From Candidatus Hydrogenedentota bacterium (lineage in GTDB: Bacteria > Hydrogenedentota > Hydrogenedentia > Hydrogenedentales > CAITNO01): a DNA stretch of 56,369 bases. Made by a program: the position numbers and the translations under genes. The notes below the pieces were generated by a model that saw nothing but the letters and a program-made list of their open reading frames with translations, had not been told where the DNA came from and searched no databases. This document shows, one piece after another, positions 47,848 through 56,369 of the stretch. The number at the start of each line of letters is the position of its first letter. Position 1 is the stretch's first letter. The DNA lies in assembly GCA_029776995.1 (NCBI GenBank), contig JAKOTZ010000103.1, positions 1 to 56,369 of the forward strand, read 5' to 3'.

Positions 47848-48609
47848 TCAGGATTCCAGGGGGGGCCTGTTACCCTGTATATACGGGGCCGGATTTGCGG
47901 GCGGCGCCGCCCACCGGACCGCGTTCAGCAAAACCCGGCGTACGTTTTCGTCATGGTAGATGGGAAAAGTTTCATGGCCGGGGCGGAAGTAAAATACTTT
48001 GCCCCGTTCCCGGCGCCAGCAGCATCCGCTGCGGAAAACTTCCCCTCCGGCGAACCAGCTGATGAATACCAGTTCATCCGGCCGGGGGATGCCAAAAGGC
48101 TCGCCATACATTTCGGTGTGCTCCAGCACGAAATGGTCGGGCAGGCCGGCGGCAATAGGGTGGGCGGGATCTACAACCCAGATCCGTTCCCGTTCACCGT
48201 CCGGTTCGCGTTCGCGCCATTTGAGGAAACAGGCTGTTCCCATGAGTCGCCTGAAGGGTTTCGAGAAATGGGCGGAATGCAGCGCGATGAATCCCATGCC
48301 CTGCAGCACACGATCGCATACCTGGTCAACCACGGCGTCATCCACCCGGTCATGGGCTTTGTGTCCCCACCAGAGCAGGACATCCGTGGCATCCAGGACC
48401 TCGGGCGTCAGGCCGTGGGAAGGCATATCCAGCGTGGCGGCGCGCGCTTCCCCTATGCCGGGCTGCCCTTCCAGCGCCGCCAGGATGGCGCCATGGATTC
48501 CCTCGGGGTAAACCGCGCGTACCCGGGCATTTTCCCGTTCATGGACGCCTTCATTCCAGACGGTGACCCGGATACCGTTGTGCGCGCCGTTGTCCGCAGC
48601 GCCGGTCAT
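47848..48609 (-). CDS. ThuA-like (trehalose utilisation) domain protein
   Basis: The 253-aa protein has the glutamine-amidotransferase-like fold of the ThuA family: '[20 protein letters not shown]', '[19 protein letters not shown]', '[21 protein letters not shown]' and '[19 protein letters not shown]'. In Sinorhizobium ThuA acts in trehalose catabolism; in Planctomycetes-like bacteria homologues often sit with sugar dehydrogenases. ATG 48609 overlaps the stop of the receiver gene (ATGA). An earlier in-frame ATG at 48891 would read through unlike sequence inside the upstream gene, so the coupled start is preferred. The role here is unclear; no sugar genes are adjacent except the alpha-barrel protein. 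Confidence 0.88.
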
Positions 48610-49517
48610 TCTTCCCTGTTTCCTTCCATTCTTGTTCCGCGGCGGTCCAGGAAAACGCCCGGTCCCGCGGCAATGGCCATCCCGCGGATCTGGGCGAGCC
48701 TGGCGAAACATTCCTGGGCGGTCATTCCCTGGCGCGTATTCGCAAACATGAAATACACGACGGTTTCCGGGACGGCCTCTCCGCTTCCTTTTCGGATGTT
48801 CAGCGCTTCGCAGAGTTCGGGGATGTGTTCTGTCCATAACCGGTACGCGGATTTGCCAAAAGACTGGGCATACTCCGGGGGCATGACGCATACGAAATGT
48901 CCGCCGCCCATGTGGGCCGCGGCAAAGCCGTTGGGCACTTTCTTTCCGCAGGCTTCCAGAATCCTCGCGAGGTGCCGCATGGCCTTGTCTCTTCCCGCGT
49001 CGCCGGCCGTTTTTTTAAACTTGACCATGTTCAACAGTTCCGCGCACACGACGGAGAAAGCTTCTTTTTTTACCAGCCTGCGCTGAATAAGATACTTCAT
49101 ATGCCGGTGGTTGAACAGTCCGGTGACGGGATCCGGCTGCGCGACAGGGGGATCGGCATTCAGCAGGTGGTTTACTTTCTGAAGCAGCATGGGCATGTGG
49201 ATCGGCTTGGAAATAAAGTCGTCCGCGCCCTGGGACAGGGCATGACGCACTTCTTCTTCGGCCGACATGGATGAGACCAGCAGCACGGGGGTCTCCCATC
49301 CCCGGTCAAGCGCCCGGATGCGCCGGCACAGCTCAAAACCGCTCACATCCGGCATCATGATCTCGGCAATCACCACGTCGGGCGGATCTTTTTCCAGACG
49401 ACTCAATGCATCCCTGCCGGTGCTTACCCACTCGCATTCGATCCCGCTGTTGTTCAGCAGGGCCTTGACCTGATTGCCGAGGGGTTCGTCCCAATCCACG
49501 TAAATTGCTCTGGCCAC
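48606..49517 (-). CDS. Receiver-GGDEF protein with substituted phospho-site and degenerate GGDEF
   Basis: The 303-aa protein has an N-terminal receiver ('[15 protein letters not shown]') whose phospho-site reads '[17 protein letters not shown]', with Glu in place of the phosphorylated Asp. The conserved Lys is kept in '[14 protein letters not shown]'. A GGDEF-like domain follows ('[20 protein letters not shown]') but its active loop is '[12 protein letters not shown]', so GGDEF has become GGGHF and cyclase activity is unlikely. It may be a constitutively 'on' output adaptor or a c-di-GMP/GTP sensor. The stop overlaps the ThuA-like start. A TTGTGT-17-TATATT promoter candidate lies upstream in the divergent gap. 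Confidence 0.88.
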
Positions 49518-50458: not shown

Positions 50459-52879
50459 TCAGGGCGCGTCGGGCAATTCGACGGGAATGCCTTTTCGCAG
50501 GACGACCAGCCTTCCGCCATTGGCCAGCACCAGGGTACTGTCCTCAGCGTTGAACTCCTTCGCGGACCACAGCCCGAAAATCCGGTCTCCCAGCATGGCG
50601 TCCACAATCTGCTCGCCGTCGCCCGACCGGAATACGACCTTGAAGCGGGGTGGACGGTTTTCTGAGCGCATGACGCCGCGTAGTTCGGCGGTTACAGGAG
50701 TGTTTTGCGCCGGTGCTGACGGGGCGCCGGTTTCAACGGGGGCCGGCTGGGCATCGGAAGCGGCATTGCCGGGGGAAGGGGGCAAGGCGTCTGCCGGAAC
50801 TGCTCCCTGGGCAGCAGACGGCGCGGCATCAGCCTGTGGATTTGACACCGGGCTTGCGCCGGGGGGCTGGGATGACGCTGCGCCGGCCGGGCTGCCCGTT
50901 ATGCCGGATGAAGGAGTGGATGGCCTGATATCCGGAGGATTCTCCGGCGGACGGACGGGTTTATCTGGGGCAATATTTGTGGCCTGCGCGCGGGCGGACA
51001 TCTCGCCTTTATCCCCCGAAAATGCCAGCACCCCCTCCGCGAGAATTCCGGCGGCCACCAGAAACAGAACCAGGGTCGCGGAAACCACAAACCTGAGCTG
51101 TTGCCTGGGCATGCCCCGCAGCACAATCCAAAACAGGGTTCCGAGCGACAGCCAACTGCACAGGGCAACCAGGGCCGGCACTCCCATTGCATTCTGGTTA
51201 ATCCCCCTCAGGACCACCATGCCCGAGGGGATGCTGGCCAGCGCCCAAAGTCCCAGGATGCCGGCAGCCCGCAGGCGGGAGGTCCGCAACAGCAGCGCGG
51301 GCACCGCAAGGAACCCCACGCCCGCGAAGATGGCGCTGAACACCCAGGATCCCGCCATAAACGCCATGACCAGAAACAAAAAAGCTGTCATCAGGGCAGG
51401 CAGCATTTCGGCGGAAAAACGCTGCCGCCCTTCCGGCTCACCGAGGTTCCTAAAGAGCGTAACCGGCCCGCCGGGCACTTCTTCGGGGAACAGGGCCGCC
51501 AGGGCGTCCCGGGCCCAAATCCGCTGTTTGCGGAGGTCAGCTCCGGCCGCGGCCAACCTTTCCGCGATAGCCCGGGCTTCTTCGGTGTCCGGCCCCCCCG
51601 CCTTTTCCACGACAACCCGGCCGTAATCATTGAGCGCCTCGATGTCCGTGTGGATATCCATCAGGATTTCCCGCAGCCGGAGCCGCAGGAATTCAATCCG
51701 GTCGTTGGCCATCCGGGAAGCCGACCGGAGCTCCCGCAGCGCGGATTCCCGGGTCGCCATATTCGTTTCCCCCAGGGATCCCCGGGCGCGCAGCCATTCG
51801 GCTTCTTCGATTTCCGCTTCGCGTCGGGCCCGTAAGGCTTCCCGGAGGCTTTCCGTAAGCCAGGCCAGCAGGGAAGAGGCATGGGATGGCGGAGCAGGCC
51901 ATACCGGACGGATTGCGTCGAAATCCACGTCTTCCCATTCTTTGTCCACGGGGCCGCCCACGTCTGAGGGGCGTTCCGCCCGCAGCCAGCCGCGCAGGTT
52001 GACCCGTTTCCGCTCCAGCACTTCGCGGCGTTCCCGCAGGGCGGCGATTTTCATGAAATATTCATCCGGCGACAGGCTTCCGGCGCGGAAACGCGCGACC
52101 GTCCGGCTGATCTCCTTCAGCGTGGCCCGCAAAGCGTCCGATGTGTCCACCAGCGCGGAACGGAACTCGCGTTCCAGCTTCCAACGCGCTGCCCGCGCCA
52201 GCCTGAGCAATCCCTCCTGCAATTCCACTTCATCGCGGCCCGCGGATGGATCCTTCCGAAGATGCTCGACTTTTCGCTCGAAATGGGCTATCGCGGACAA
52301 GATGACCTGGAGGGCCGGCTGGGGGTCAATCGGCCGGTCTTCCGGGCCGGTGGCGGGGTGTTCAGGGGATTCGTCTTCCGTTTCGGCGGCAGCATCGGGC
52401 CGACTTTTGTTCAACACGTTTTCCGCGTTGTCACGAGGTGGGCCATCCAGCGGTTCTGTTGTCTCCGGAGCATCCGGCCCTGGAGACGGTCTGTTTTTGG
52501 GGGGTGCCGATGGTCCGGGCGCTTTGCCGGAAATTTCTCCCGCTCCGGCGGGAGAAGCTGTTTCCGCATTGGATACAGCTTTCCCCGCGGGCTCAGCATT
52601 GCTGACTCTTTCCTGCCGGGGCAGAACTGCTTCCGCTTTTTCCCGGGGATCCGCCTGCGCCCGAACCCGCTGCCCCGGTTCCCGCAACAGTTCCCGGTGC
52701 TGCGCCACGTGAACCACTGGACCGAAAGCTTCAACCTCTTCGCGGTAGGGCATCCACAGCTTCTGTCGGCAGGCGGGACACTTTCCGGGCTGCCCATACA
52801 TGGATTCTTCAATGGCCATCCGCTGGCCGCACACGCAAACGAGCCTTGCCGGATTGCCCGATCTGTTATCCGATGCCAT
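50459..52879 (-). CDS. Large zinc-ribbon, coiled-coil and membrane protein (806 aa)
   Basis: The N-terminus has a zinc ribbon ('CVCGQRMAIEESMYGQPGKC' followed by 'PACRQKLWMP') seen in Planctomycetes-like bacteria, then a disordered Pro/Glu-rich part to about 170. A long helical region (about 180-460) contains 'RKDPSAGRDEVELQEGLL' and 'RSLSPDEYF'-like coiled-coil segments. Four to five membrane helices lie at about 475-620. The last part is Pro/Ala-rich and then a small domain with 'RGVMRSENRPPRFKVVFRSG' and 'LVLANGGRLVVLRKGIPVEL', which recalls the C-terminal loops of GspC/PilP-like secretion proteins. The topology suggests an envelope-spanning anchor. A TATAAT lies about 95 bases upstream. 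No family covers the whole protein. Confidence 0.8.
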   Translation of the reverse strand: MASDNRSGNPARLVCVCGQRMAIEESMYGQPGKCPACRQKLWMPYREEVEAFGPVVHVAQHRELLREPGQRVRAQADPREKAEAVLPRQERVSNAEPAGKAVSNAETASPAGAGEISGKAPGPSAPPKNRPSPGPDAPETTEPLDGPPRDNAENVLNKSRPDAAAETEDESPEHPATGPEDRPIDPQPALQVILSAIAHFERKVEHLRKDPSAGRDEVELQEGLLRLARAARWKLEREFRSALVDTSDALRATLKEISRTVARFRAGSLSPDEYFMKIAALRERREVLERKRVNLRGWLRAERPSDVGGPVDKEWEDVDFDAIRPVWPAPPSHASSLLAWLTESLREALRARREAEIEEAEWLRARGSLGETNMATRESALRELRSASRMANDRIEFLRLRLREILMDIHTDIEALNDYGRVVVEKAGGPDTEEARAIAERLAAAGADLRKQRIWARDALAALFPEEVPGGPVTLFRNLGEPEGRQRFSAEMLPALMTAFLFLVMAFMAGSWVFSAIFAGVGFLAVPALLLRTSRLRAAGILGLWALASIPSGMVVLRGINQNAMGVPALVALCSWLSLGTLFWIVLRGMPRQQLRFVVSATLVLFLVAAGILAEGVLAFSGDKGEMSARAQATNIAPDKPVRPPENPPDIRPSTPSSGITGSPAGAASSQPPGASPVSNPQADAAPSAAQGAVPADALPPSPGNAASDAQPAPVETGAPSAPAQNTPVTAELRGVMRSENRPPRFKVVFRSGDGEQIVDAMLGDRIFGLWSAKEFNAEDSTLVLANGGRLVVLRKGIPVELPDAP

Positions 52880-53114: not shown

Positions 53115-54122
53115 ATGGAGACAGCAGCCGCCGTGAACAAGGAACCCAAACCCGCGACGCCGGGAGATGGTCCGGATGGATCTGTTCCCGGAACTTGGCG
53201 GCTCGTGTCCGTACTGGCCTACCTGGGACTGGGAATTCTACCGGGACTGAACCGTTTACGCGCATGGCGGCCGCCGGAACTCTGCCACCGGCATATTAAC
53301 CGGGCCAATGTGCTGCTCGGCCTGTTTTTTTTCATGACAGTCGGGTTTCTGTTGGCAGGCATGATCGGCGGCACGGCGGGTTCCGTGCCGAAGGGCGGTT
53401 TTTTTCGCCTGATACCGGATGAGTGGACCCTGCGCGTGTATTTCCGGCGGGTGACGCTGGCCTGGCTGGTGTTCTGGAGCTGGGGCGTCCTCCACGCGGT
53501 TCGGGGCAGGTGGGGAAATATGCTGGGCATTGACAGTCTCGCCCGTCGGGCGGTGGTAGCGGGCATATGCCGCGGGGGACTAAGGATCGGCGCGGGATGC
53601 CTGGCGGTGATGCTGGGCATAGGATTCCATGGCATATGGATGTGCCGCAATGCCGAAGCATCCGCGAAGTGTTACCTGCTGTATGAATCCATGGAAGGCC
53701 GTCTGCCGCGCGTGCTGTTTGGTTTTGGGTTTTACTCGGTTATCAGGGCGGGATCCGCGGTATGGGGACCGGGAAGCGTTGCGCTCCTTCCGCTTACGGT
53801 TTCCAATCTGGCGCAGGCGTTGCAGCGCGGCGAATTCGTTTTTGTAGGCTCGCACGGATCGGAATCGGGGCTGCTGCTGGCAGAAGGAACGCTGAGTCCG
53901 GAGGATGTGGCTGGCATGAGAGGGGAACACGTGCCCCGGGCTGTTTATCTGGCGGGGTGCAACGCCGCGGTTAAGGAATGGGAGCAGGCATTGCATCCGG
54001 CGCGGGTTCTTGCGCGCGACCGCCAGGTTGGCACCGCGGAACATCTCGCGTGGATATGGTGCGAGGGACCGGCGTTTATCCGGGACCTTGCGGAGCCTTC
54101 AGCGGTTTCGGCCGGACCCTGA
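53115..54122 (+). CDS. Membrane protein with C-terminal CHAT/caspase-like His-Cys module
   Basis: The 335-aa protein has four membrane helices at about residues 31-46, 63-83, 112-130 and 152-172. A soluble C-terminal part follows from about 185. 'EFVFVGSHGSESGLLLAEG' (His247) and 'RAVYLAGCNAAVKEWEQAL' (Cys282) form a His...Cys dyad with the spacing and context of CHAT or gingipain-type caspase-fold peptidases: a strand, 'HG', a 'LSxxDV' helix, then a strand and Cys. The segment between is short, so the domain is minimal. It may be a membrane-anchored protease or an inactive sensor. ATG 53115 has only a weak ribosome site. The fold call is by motif and needs a profile search. Confidence 0.65.
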   Translation: METAAAVNKEPKPATPGDGPDGSVPGTWRLVSVLAYLGLGILPGLNRLRAWRPPELCHRHINRANVLLGLFFFMTVGFLLAGMIGGTAGSVPKGGFFRLIPDEWTLRVYFRRVTLAWLVFWSWGVLHAVRGRWGNMLGIDSLARRAVVAGICRGGLRIGAGCLAVMLGIGFHGIWMCRNAEASAKCYLLYESMEGRLPRVLFGFGFYSVIRAGSAVWGPGSVALLPLTVSNLAQALQRGEFVFVGSHGSESGLLLAEGTLSPEDVAGMRGEHVPRAVYLAGCNAAVKEWEQALHPARVLARDRQVGTAEHLAWIWCEGPAFIRDLAEPSAVSAGP

Positions 54123-54163: not shown

Positions 54164-56369
54164 TCAGTCTTCAATGAGCATGGGGAAGAAGTTCAATGTT
54201 CCCGCGCCGCCGGTGATGACCGAATAGACGCCGCCATCCTGAACCTGGATGTTAAGTCCGGAGTACAGCAGGACGTCTGTTTCCGCGTCACGATACTGAA
54301 GTTCGTAGTTTCCGGCGGGGAGTTCCGTGTAGGCGGAACTGCCGCGGTAGGCCAGGTCCGCCGCGAACACCGTTTCCTGCAGGGATGCGGTATCCACCGC
54401 GATCACGTCCACAGGCTGGAGCTCCCAGTTGGCATGGATGACCCGGACCCTCCCCTGGCCCGGCGCGGGCAAGGAAAGGTCATCGGGAAACCCCAGCAGG
54501 GATGGCTCCGCGGAGGAAACAAAAGTGATCGGCTCCGTATCCAGGGTTACGGACACGCTGGCGAGCGCGCTGCCAGCGCAATCTTCTGCCACCGGCACCA
54601 GCGACAGCATTACATCGCCCGCGGGCATCGAGATAAAAGGCGTGTAGTCTCCGAGGTCCAGCCCCGCGGCCTGTTTGGCGGAAATCCCGCCGGCGGTGGC
54701 GCATAGGTCCACGAAACCCAGCGTCGGCGCGGCGTGGGCCAGCCGAACCGTGGCCGGCCTGCCCGCGCAGAATCCATCGCCGTCGGGAGAGAAATCGCCG
54801 CAGTAATAGTAGGCGCCGGCATTATAGAACTGAATGACCCGAAGGAGCTCATCCAGCGAGATTTCAAAATTTCCGTCCAAATCAGCGCTGCTGGGGCTGC
54901 AGGATTCCGCGGAATCGTCCTGGCCAGGCTCGAAACCGTCCTCGGTTGATCCCGGATCCGCCGCGCAATGGTAACCGCCGGAATTGTAGAACTGGATTAT
55001 CCGCATCAGTTCCGTAACGTCGATTACGTTATCCCCGTTCTGGTCGGCGGTATAGTCCGGCGGAGGCGTCTGGCACGGGACAGGCGTTACCGTAAACTGG
55101 CAGGTGGCATCCGGCGACGCGGTGCTCATGTCCTTGACCGTGATGGTTACCGTCTGGGGTGCGGTAATTTCGGTGCCGGCGGGCGGGGTCTGCAGAATTG
55201 AAATGGGGCCGTAATCATCCACCGCGGTAATCAGGGTGCGGTAGTCCTCCAGGAACCACCGGCAGTTTTCATCCGGATAGGCGACCGTATCGGGCGCGCA
55301 GGCGATGATGGTCGGCGCGGCCGTATCTTCGACGAATACGGCCGTCAGGGTCTGATCCGTCGCGCCCATGGTGTACATGAATTCCGGCGTTGAGGACACG
55401 AGCGCGGAGGTCTGGTCCCGCCAGCTGTCGAATACCCAGGAGGAATTGACGCGTCCCGCAAAGAGGTTGATCTGGAATCCCTGCGCCAGGGTATACGTGC
55501 CTATGTTGGGCACAATGTAGCCCTGTCCCTGGACGGCCAGGGTAAGCTGCGCGCCCGTCAGGGTATACGCGGCGCCCAGGGTAGTCGGTCCATCGACCCG
55601 GACAGAAACTTCGCGGGGGCTGGTTTCTCCCGCCAGGTCTCCCCGCCAGCCATTGAAGTAGCTGCCGGGGTCCGGGTTGGCGCTGAACCGTATGGTGCTG
55701 CCCGTGATGATGCGGTACACGCCGGTATCCAGGGGGAAAGTGTAGCCGCTACCGGGCCCTTCCGGTGGCAGCACGGTAAGCTGCTGGGACTGGGCGGGGT
55801 CATCCGTGTAGTTGGCAATCATCGTCATATTCTGGGTGATGGGGAAGGTCAGGATGTACTCCCCGGAGACCAGGTTTCCGGTCCAGGCGATAAACGCGGC
55901 GGGGCTGCCGTCGGCGGGCAGCGCGGAAATGGTGACCATGTCTCCGATTCGGTAACCATACTGGCCCGGCGGCGGCGTCACGTTTACGGGATTTGCAGTT
56001 CCGGCCACCTGAATGGTCAGTGTCACGTCGGCCGGCGCGAAGTTGGCCGTGATGGTGCGGTTCCGGTCCATGGTCACGAGTATGCCCGTCTGGCGGGGAT
56101 CAATGCCTTCCGGCACATCACCGGTCCATCCGTCAAAAACCTGTCCCGCGCCGGGAGATGCGGAGATAAACACCACGATTCCCGCCTCGTGGACGTACTG
56201 CGTTCCTGGAGCCGGGGAGGATGGAGGAGATGTGGTCCCCGCGCCGGAGCGGATCAGCGTGAGGGTGTAGGTGGGACGCTCGAAAACGGCACGGATTTCC
56301 CGGTCGGCAGTGAGGGTAAAGCTGTACGGGTTGGCCGTGGCGACGGTATTGTTGGATGCGTCCACCCAG
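54164..56369 (-). CDS. Large secreted protein with beta-repeat, HYR, dockerin-like and DUF4397 domains, N-terminus cut
   Basis: The frame is open to the window end, so the start is missing; about 735 residues are visible. Tandem repeats of the bacterial 'GW..D' type ('FDGWTGDVPEGIDPRQ', 'VTMDRNRTITANFAPADV', 'SYFNGWRGDLAGETSPREV') cover residues 1-340. A HYR-like region ('DDYGPISILQTPPAGTEITA') follows. Bases 54745-55054 encode two dockerin-like EF-hand repeats ('DQNGDNVIDVTELMRIIQFY' and 'DLDGNFEISLDELLRVIQFY') each followed by a Cys/Asp-rich segment. The last 190 residues are a DUF4397 domain ('VRLAHAAPTLGFVDL', 'GRVRVIHANWELQPVDVI'). Such proteins are cell-surface or secreted adhesins. The repeated 'ELxRxIQFYN' unit is typical of Hydrogenedentes-like genomes. 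Confidence 0.85.
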   Translation of the reverse strand, partial: WVDASNNTVATANPYSFTLTADREIRAVFERPTYTLTLIRSGAGTTSPPSSPAPGTQYVHEAGIVVFISASPGAGQVFDGWTGDVPEGIDPRQTGILVTMDRNRTITANFAPADVTLTIQVAGTANPVNVTPPPGQYGYRIGDMVTISALPADGSPAAFIAWTGNLVSGEYILTFPITQNMTMIANYTDDPAQSQQLTVLPPEGPGSGYTFPLDTGVYRIITGSTIRFSANPDPGSYFNGWRGDLAGETSPREVSVRVDGPTTLGAAYTLTGAQLTLAVQGQGYIVPNIGTYTLAQGFQINLFAGRVNSSWVFDSWRDQTSALVSSTPEFMYTMGATDQTLTAVFVEDTAAPTIIACAPDTVAYPDENCRWFLEDYRTLITAVDDYGPISILQTPPAGTEITAPQTVTITVKDMSTASPDATCQFTVTPVPCQTPPPDYTADQNGDNVIDVTELMRIIQFYNSGGYHCAADPGSTEDGFEPGQDDSAESCSPSSADLDGNFEISLDELLRVIQFYNAGAYYYCGDFSPDGDGFCAGRPATVRLAHAAPTLGFVDLCATAGGISAKQAAGLDLGDYTPFISMPAGDVMLSLVPVAEDCAGSALASVSVTLDTEPITFVSSAEPSLLGFPDDLSLPAPGQGRVRVIHANWELQPVDVIAVDTASLQETVFAADLAYRGSSAYTELPAGNYELQYRDAETDVLLYSGLNIQVQDGGVYSVITGGAGTLNFFPMLIED

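Follow-up and report, generated by a model that had tools for sequence, protein, structure and literature searches.

HOTT-CHAT of the Hydrogenedentota: a HOTT/DUF4870-Tic20-like membrane domain fused to a CHAT-like domain in a candidate periplasmic peptidase

Introduction

What is known of CHAT peptidases comes chiefly from immunity and from the development of cyanobacteria, and enzymes with the caspase fold also act as transamidases or sortases (GPI transamidase and PorU). HOTT/DUF4870 domains are, as far as we know, widespread and almost entirely uncharacterised, the one demonstrated role that we know of being membrane-protein targeting by the magnetosome MamF-like ones. The Hydrogenedentota are, to our knowledge, a little-known phylum with almost no experimental work. 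A natural fusion of a HOTT domain with a peptidase would point directly to what such domains act on and would offer a single gene in which to look for HOTT-linked substrates.

Several described proteins resemble such a fusion in part. The transmembrane anti-sigma factor DdvA (8rot/8rw5) resembles the protein studied here in lying in the membrane and ending in a CHAT-like domain, but it is about 900 residues long, has no HOTT domain that we know of and carries an anti-sigma domain that HOTT-CHAT lacks. HetF of Anabaena is likewise a membrane-located CHAT protein and putative protease (PMC8406250), but its CHAT domain is N-terminal, it has a single transmembrane segment and TPRs, and it is tied to the divisome and to heterocyst development in cyanobacteria. 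Cyanobacterial orthocaspases also include caspase homologues with transmembrane segments (67 of 473; PMC8283722); these differ in belonging to peptidase C14 and in having one or two such segments, usually C-terminal to the peptidase.

Here we establish by computation the architecture, fold, dyad equivalence, conservation and vertical inheritance of HOTT-CHAT, a protein encoded on a 56,369-nucleotide stretch of DNA (the window) from a Candidatus Hydrogenedentota bacterium (assembly GCA_029776995.1, contig JAKOTZ010000103.1, positions 1 to 56,369, forward strand). Its HOTT and CHAT parts are each known, while their combination, its size and its probable periplasmic placement are new to us; our literature search found no paper combining DUF4870 with a CHAT domain, nor one combining Hydrogenedentota with caspase. 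The protein would extend CHAT peptidases to a vertically inherited, probably periplasmic housekeeping role.

Results and discussion

A single-copy gene with homologues in the phylum

The open reading frame at 53115..54122 (+) encodes 335 amino acids plus a stop and begins with ATG. It was found as the original prediction had described it and is a real gene with homologues in the phylum, which, together with its invariant His and Cys, is more than chance would give; the exact start codon is uncertain since residues 1-25 are poorly conserved. In a search of 60 relatives, the same-genus orthologue shared 53% identity with the window protein over 315 residues and the remaining strong homologues 28-40%. 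Across 30 distinct homologues, M1, Y36, G38, W117, P198, H247, G248, G252, P262, Y278, L279, C282, W289, P295, A296 and H310 are invariant.

When 68 Hydrogenedentota genomes were searched with a 25-row profile, HOTT-CHAT was present as a single copy in 36, as it is in the window's own genome, patchily in family f4 and in none of the 25 genomes of family f5. Pfam returned no family for the window protein at E 10 or better. A scan of genome contigs with a single HOTT-CHAT sequence gave 0 matches, and an alignment-based scan of 84,980 species gave 19, with no record named as another phylum; the named records were Candidatus Hydrogenedentota except for one "uncultured bacterium". This larger scan, which rested on a single motif, is no more than suggestive of an absence outside the phylum.

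The C-terminal domain has a CHAT-like caspase fold

Structure prediction of the C-terminal domain, which had been proposed as a check on its caspase-like character, returned a caspase fold for the last 150 residues (AlphaFold model built on 19 sequences, pLDDT 86, pTM 0.80). We place this domain at residues 183-331 (53661..54107, +). In the model, strands run over residues 186-190, 222-226, 241-245 (followed by His247), 276-280 (followed by Cys282) and 297-300, and the other elements are a hairpin at 252-260 and helices at 262-266 and 307-326.

Foldseek placed a SAVED-CHAT structure on top (E 0.039, probability 1.00), and after structural re-alignment by VIA the five best matches were all CHAT proteins, with Z from 10.2 to 7.3 over 126-141 residues: SAVED-CHAT 8tl0 (10.2), DdvA (8.7 for 8rot, and 8.3), Craspase 8d9f (8.2) and Cas7-11/TPR-CHAT (7.3). 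The Foldseek E-values are weak, the one just given being the best, and many Rossmann dehydrogenases lie at Z 6-7, starting at 7.1, as would be expected if the domain were a generic Rossmann-like one with a degenerate or chance resemblance to caspases and no CHAT relative. We regard this reading as hardly credible, since the CHATs rank above the dehydrogenases and since the sequence profile agrees independently: in hhalign, the C-terminal part of the family scored E 2.8e-8 against a profile built from 20 Hydrogenedentota CHAT domains, with His and Cys in correct register, whereas the full family alignment reached 0.2 at best when its columns were shuffled (20 times) and 0.45 when it was reversed.

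The Pfam CHAT profile (PF12770) was matched by 5 of 25 members (best 8.7e-4), the window protein not among them, and no member checked reached its cut-off (best 19.3 bits against 24). With PF12770 below cut-off and the profile-profile comparison positive, we describe the domain, on this sequence evidence, as CHAT-like, that is, as a divergent CHAT. Peptidase C25 (gingipain/PorU) was considered and rejected: PF01364 matched 4 of 25 members below its cut-off (best E 0.012), and CHAT fits better. A sequence search of the PDB with the HOTT-CHAT family profile yielded weak claudin matches only.

With SAVED-CHAT (8tl0) and the TPR-CHAT (Csx29) of Craspase (8d9f), HOTT-CHAT thus shares the caspase fold, a His and then a Cys at strand ends, the hairpin and short helix between them, and an HG and a C[DN]SG-like motif at matching positions. 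It differs in having no TPR, SAVED or Cas partner, in its fused multi-helix membrane domain, in staying below the Pfam cut-off and in its C-terminal end, where the SLWxVxD region of classical CHATs is replaced by a family-specific segment, TxDRLTxxxEHxWWLW, forming a Trp-rich helix with the invariant His310 (codon 54042..54044, +; 30/30). CHAT proteins of the classical type, most of them larger and in open frames of up to about 1700 aa, occur in 21 of the 60 relatives; the window's genome has none.

A His-Cys dyad invariant in the family

The predicted catalytic His247 (codon 53853..53855, +) and the predicted nucleophile Cys282 (codon 53958..53960, +) lie, as originally read from the sequence, in GSHG and LAGCNA (in full VGSHG and YLAGCNA), separated by the LSxxDV motif, here LSPEDV at residues 260-265. 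In the hhalign alignment, GSHG falls over the CHG and AGCNA over the SACNS of CHAT (SACNSG with the following glycine), so that computation establishes the two residues as equivalent to the CHAT dyad; both were invariant in the 30 distinct homologues aligned. Of the 20 other, classical CHAT proteins of the phylum that were aligned, 16 carry both residues at these columns and four lack them. The proposal of a CHAT/caspase-like protein with a His-Cys dyad is borne out by the fold, the profile-profile alignment, the weak Pfam CHAT matches and the invariant His and Cys; catalysis itself we only infer, and the activity is putative.

The window's genus is divergent in the active-site loop. Most members have GCDSG at and after the Cys, in place of which the window protein has GCNAAV and its sister species GCHADV, so that the peptidase activity of the window protein could be altered. 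This loop would also suit a membrane sensor or scaffold with no proteolytic activity, in which the CHAT fold serves for binding, possibly as in DdvA, which is both the second-best fold match and a membrane protein. Such a role seems unlikely to us: His and Cys are kept in 30 of 30 homologues, whose identity to the window protein spans about 26-53%, unlike what a pseudo-enzyme would lead one to expect, and HOTT-CHAT carries no fused signalling domain or sigma factor.

The membrane anchor is a HOTT/DUF4870-Tic20-like domain

The membrane part was foreseen as four N-terminal helices. A membrane part there is, but the model resolves it into three spanning helices and a short re-entrant-like pair. 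Residues 26-145 (53190..53549, +) form a HOTT/DUF4870-Tic20-like domain that starts with this pair (residues 26-36 and 43-51; 53190..53267, +), which matches IMH1-IMH1' of HOTT proteins (PMC11628618), and continues with membrane helices IMH2 (residues 55-89; 53277..53381, +), opened by an HHxxQA motif, and IMH3 (residues 103-130; 53421..53504, +). An additional transmembrane helix (residues 146-176; 53550..53642, +), predicted from the model, hydropathy (mean 1.64 over residues 151-174) and charge bias, joins the HOTT domain to the CHAT domain and would pass through to the periplasmic side.

By hhalign, the N-terminal part of the family matched a HOTT/DUF4870 alignment at E 9.2e-6, none of 20 shuffles doing better than 0.039, and HOTT/DUF4870 could be aligned end to end with residues 26-145 at low stringency. 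In one orthologue (L009), the PF09685 (DUF4870) profile matched over positions 24-102 of 107 (6.8e-4, below cut-off) and, in the same protein, PF12770 over 128-206 of 289 (8.7e-4); for both families, all members checked stay below the gathering score of Pfam. Modelled alone (residues 1-181, pLDDT 85.6), the membrane domain had as its top three matches chains from three TOC-TIC/TIC structures of chloroplasts (Z 9.0, 8.6 and 7.9; 107-111 residues aligned; rmsd 2.8-3.4), values that for helical bundles are not conclusive by themselves below a Z of about 13; we took the Tic20 identity of these chains from PMC11628618 (7xZI) and from chain length. Searching PDB sequences with the HOTT profile gave chance matches only.

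The model fits the published description of HOTT, a re-entrant helix pair, a charged loop and two helices (PMC11628618), plus one more helix, and the protein shares with HOTT/DUF4870 (PF09685), Tic20 and MamF-like proteins the pair, the charged loop, the two membrane helices and a G-x-P end motif. It differs from them in its basic loop before IMH2 and in the helix and peptidase that follow, HOTT proteins of the phylum being mostly short stand-alone frames of about 120-190 aa. The predicted membrane anchoring is thus upheld, but the anchor is a recognisable domain that had been overlooked: judged by sequence profiles and models, the membrane part is a HOTT/DUF4870-Tic20-like domain, akin to the import protein Tic20 of chloroplasts, plus an extra helix and no generic anchor.

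Charge distribution and Tic20 suggest a periplasmic CHAT domain

In Tic20, both termini are stromal, the equivalent of cytoplasmic (PMC3203047). With one extra helix after the HOTT domain, the CHAT domain would be exported. Positive charges point the same way: mean K+R is 4.0 in loop 1 and 3.8 in loop 3 against 3.7 in loop 2 (R111 and K112 included) and 1.7 in the CHAT-proximal segment, and the K+R asymmetry favours a periplasmic CHAT domain in 29 of 30 homologues (net +6.4 vs +1.4). The charge rule loses some force through the near-invariant R111 and K/R112 where IMH3 starts, but 29 of 30 holds even when they are counted. Non-catalytic cysteines number 0.46 per 100 aa in the CHAT domain and 1.8 in the membrane part. 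Sequence and the analogy with Tic20 strongly suggest that the CHAT domain lies on the periplasmic side of the inner membrane. The label of an intramembrane protease does not hold, as the peptidase domain would be soluble and probably periplasmic.

Genomic context and inheritance

In the window, the HOTT-CHAT gene stands alone, divergent from a gene for an 806-aa envelope protein and convergent with one for a secreted protein. A link to the 806-aa gene, the only neighbour that had seemed of interest, is not supported: that gene is present in 58 of 60 relatives, the HOTT-CHAT-less family among them, and we saw the two side by side only in the window's genus. The 806-aa protein (50459-52879, -) is near-universal in the phylum, has no Pfam assignment and consists of an N-terminal CxxC zinc-ribbon-like motif, a coiled region, membrane helices and a conserved C-terminal domain. 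The protein of the convergent gene (54164-56368, -), whose frame runs off the right end of the window, is large and looks secreted; it has InlB B-type repeats, EF-hand/dockerin-like segments and DUF4397. At 48606-49517 (-) the window encodes a fusion of a response regulator receiver with a GGDEF domain; the latter scores only at the Pfam cut-off and is perhaps degenerate.

Elsewhere the neighbours vary by family, with surE upstream and dapB convergent in some genera of f1 and a zinc-ribbon gene divergent to HOTT-CHAT in f3, f8, f9, f10 and f11. The zinc-ribbon gene encodes a membrane protein of about 360 aa (L032 6789-7874, -, and homologues) and belongs to the phylum core (63 of 68 genomes). 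As a specific partner it was rejected, because it is phylum-core and persists without HOTT-CHAT; we read the pairing as synteny instead. We found no conserved partner gene or substrate of HOTT-CHAT. In f5 (L124 and L127), the zinc-ribbon gene sits beside its neighbour from the same block; these two, which flank HOTT-CHAT in f10 and f11, are roughly 0.2 kb apart with no HOTT-CHAT between them, an apparent empty site. The lack of HOTT-CHAT in f5 is apparently a clean absence.

HOTT-CHAT is vertically inherited: its gene tree follows the families, with f1, f3, f7 and f10 monophyletic. A mobile or viral origin was considered and dropped, as the plasmids and viral contigs of the collections searched contained no HOTT-CHAT; PHROGs likewise gave no match. 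These results bear on the possibility that HOTT-CHAT is a membrane-tethered effector of defence or cell death with a cytoplasmic peptidase, comparable to SAVED-CHAT, Craspase and gasdermin-linked proteases. Its nearest solved fold relatives are indeed the defence CHATs SAVED-CHAT and Craspase, but we judge such a function quite improbable given its vertical inheritance as a single copy over the phylum, the missing mobile-element copies, the failure of any PADLOC model to match 25 members (0/25), ordinary neighbours such as surE and dapB, and a topology that favours the periplasm. As a whole, these observations agree better with a dispensable but lineage-core function, passed on vertically, than with defence.

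Proposed function

We propose that HOTT-CHAT may be an inner-membrane protein in which a HOTT/DUF4870-Tic20-like domain and an extra helix carry a C-terminal periplasmic CHAT-type cysteine peptidase. Proteins with glycine-rich membrane helices at the C-terminus depend on MamF-like HOTT proteins for their placement in the magnetosome membrane, and the MamF-like proteins interact with those C-terminal domains (PMC11628618). Combined with a cysteine peptidase in the periplasm, such a role points to a HOTT part that presents a substrate and a CHAT part that cuts it at the membrane surface: by analogy with the MamF-like proteins, the HOTT bundle would hold or recruit membrane-inserted substrates, the His247/Cys282 dyad would cut them just outside the membrane, and cleavage would be a constitutive step of envelope maturation or quality control. 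Substrate presentation and the housekeeping role are what we infer here, and a part for the HOTT domain in protein targeting or import is drawn only by analogy with MamF-like proteins and Tic20. For an inner-membrane-anchored periplasmic caspase-fold peptidase that acts on HOTT-recruited envelope proteins, we see about an even chance. A more specific version sees the two parts as one dedicated bacterial system in which the HOTT bundle takes up the membrane helix of a substrate, to be cut or transferred at the membrane surface by the CHAT domain on the periplasmic side, and would make this a caspase-type sorting or maturation peptidase for membrane proteins not described before; this we offer as a doubtful conjecture.

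In a related reading, HOTT-CHAT would be a C-terminal sorting transpeptidase that works like GPI transamidase or exosortase: its HOTT domain would recognise a C-terminal hydrophobic helix, and its caspase-fold domain would cut the protein and join it again. The binding of C-terminal glycine-rich helices by MamF-like proteins (PMC11628618) is in keeping with such an enzyme, as are the caspase-fold transamidases and sortases found elsewhere (GPI transamidase, PorU), but exosortases, which it might be expected to complement, show no complementarity in the phylum in a comparison confounded by lineage, and we consider it decidedly improbable. By hand count, 13 genomes with strong exosortase matches have HOTT-CHAT and 18 do not, and among genomes without a strong match about 23 have it and 14 do not; complementarity was set aside as not supported on these lineage-confounded counts. 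Exosortase genes abound in f5, where a genome has as many as five matches; in most of f1, f3 and f7 and in part of f4 they are weak or missing.
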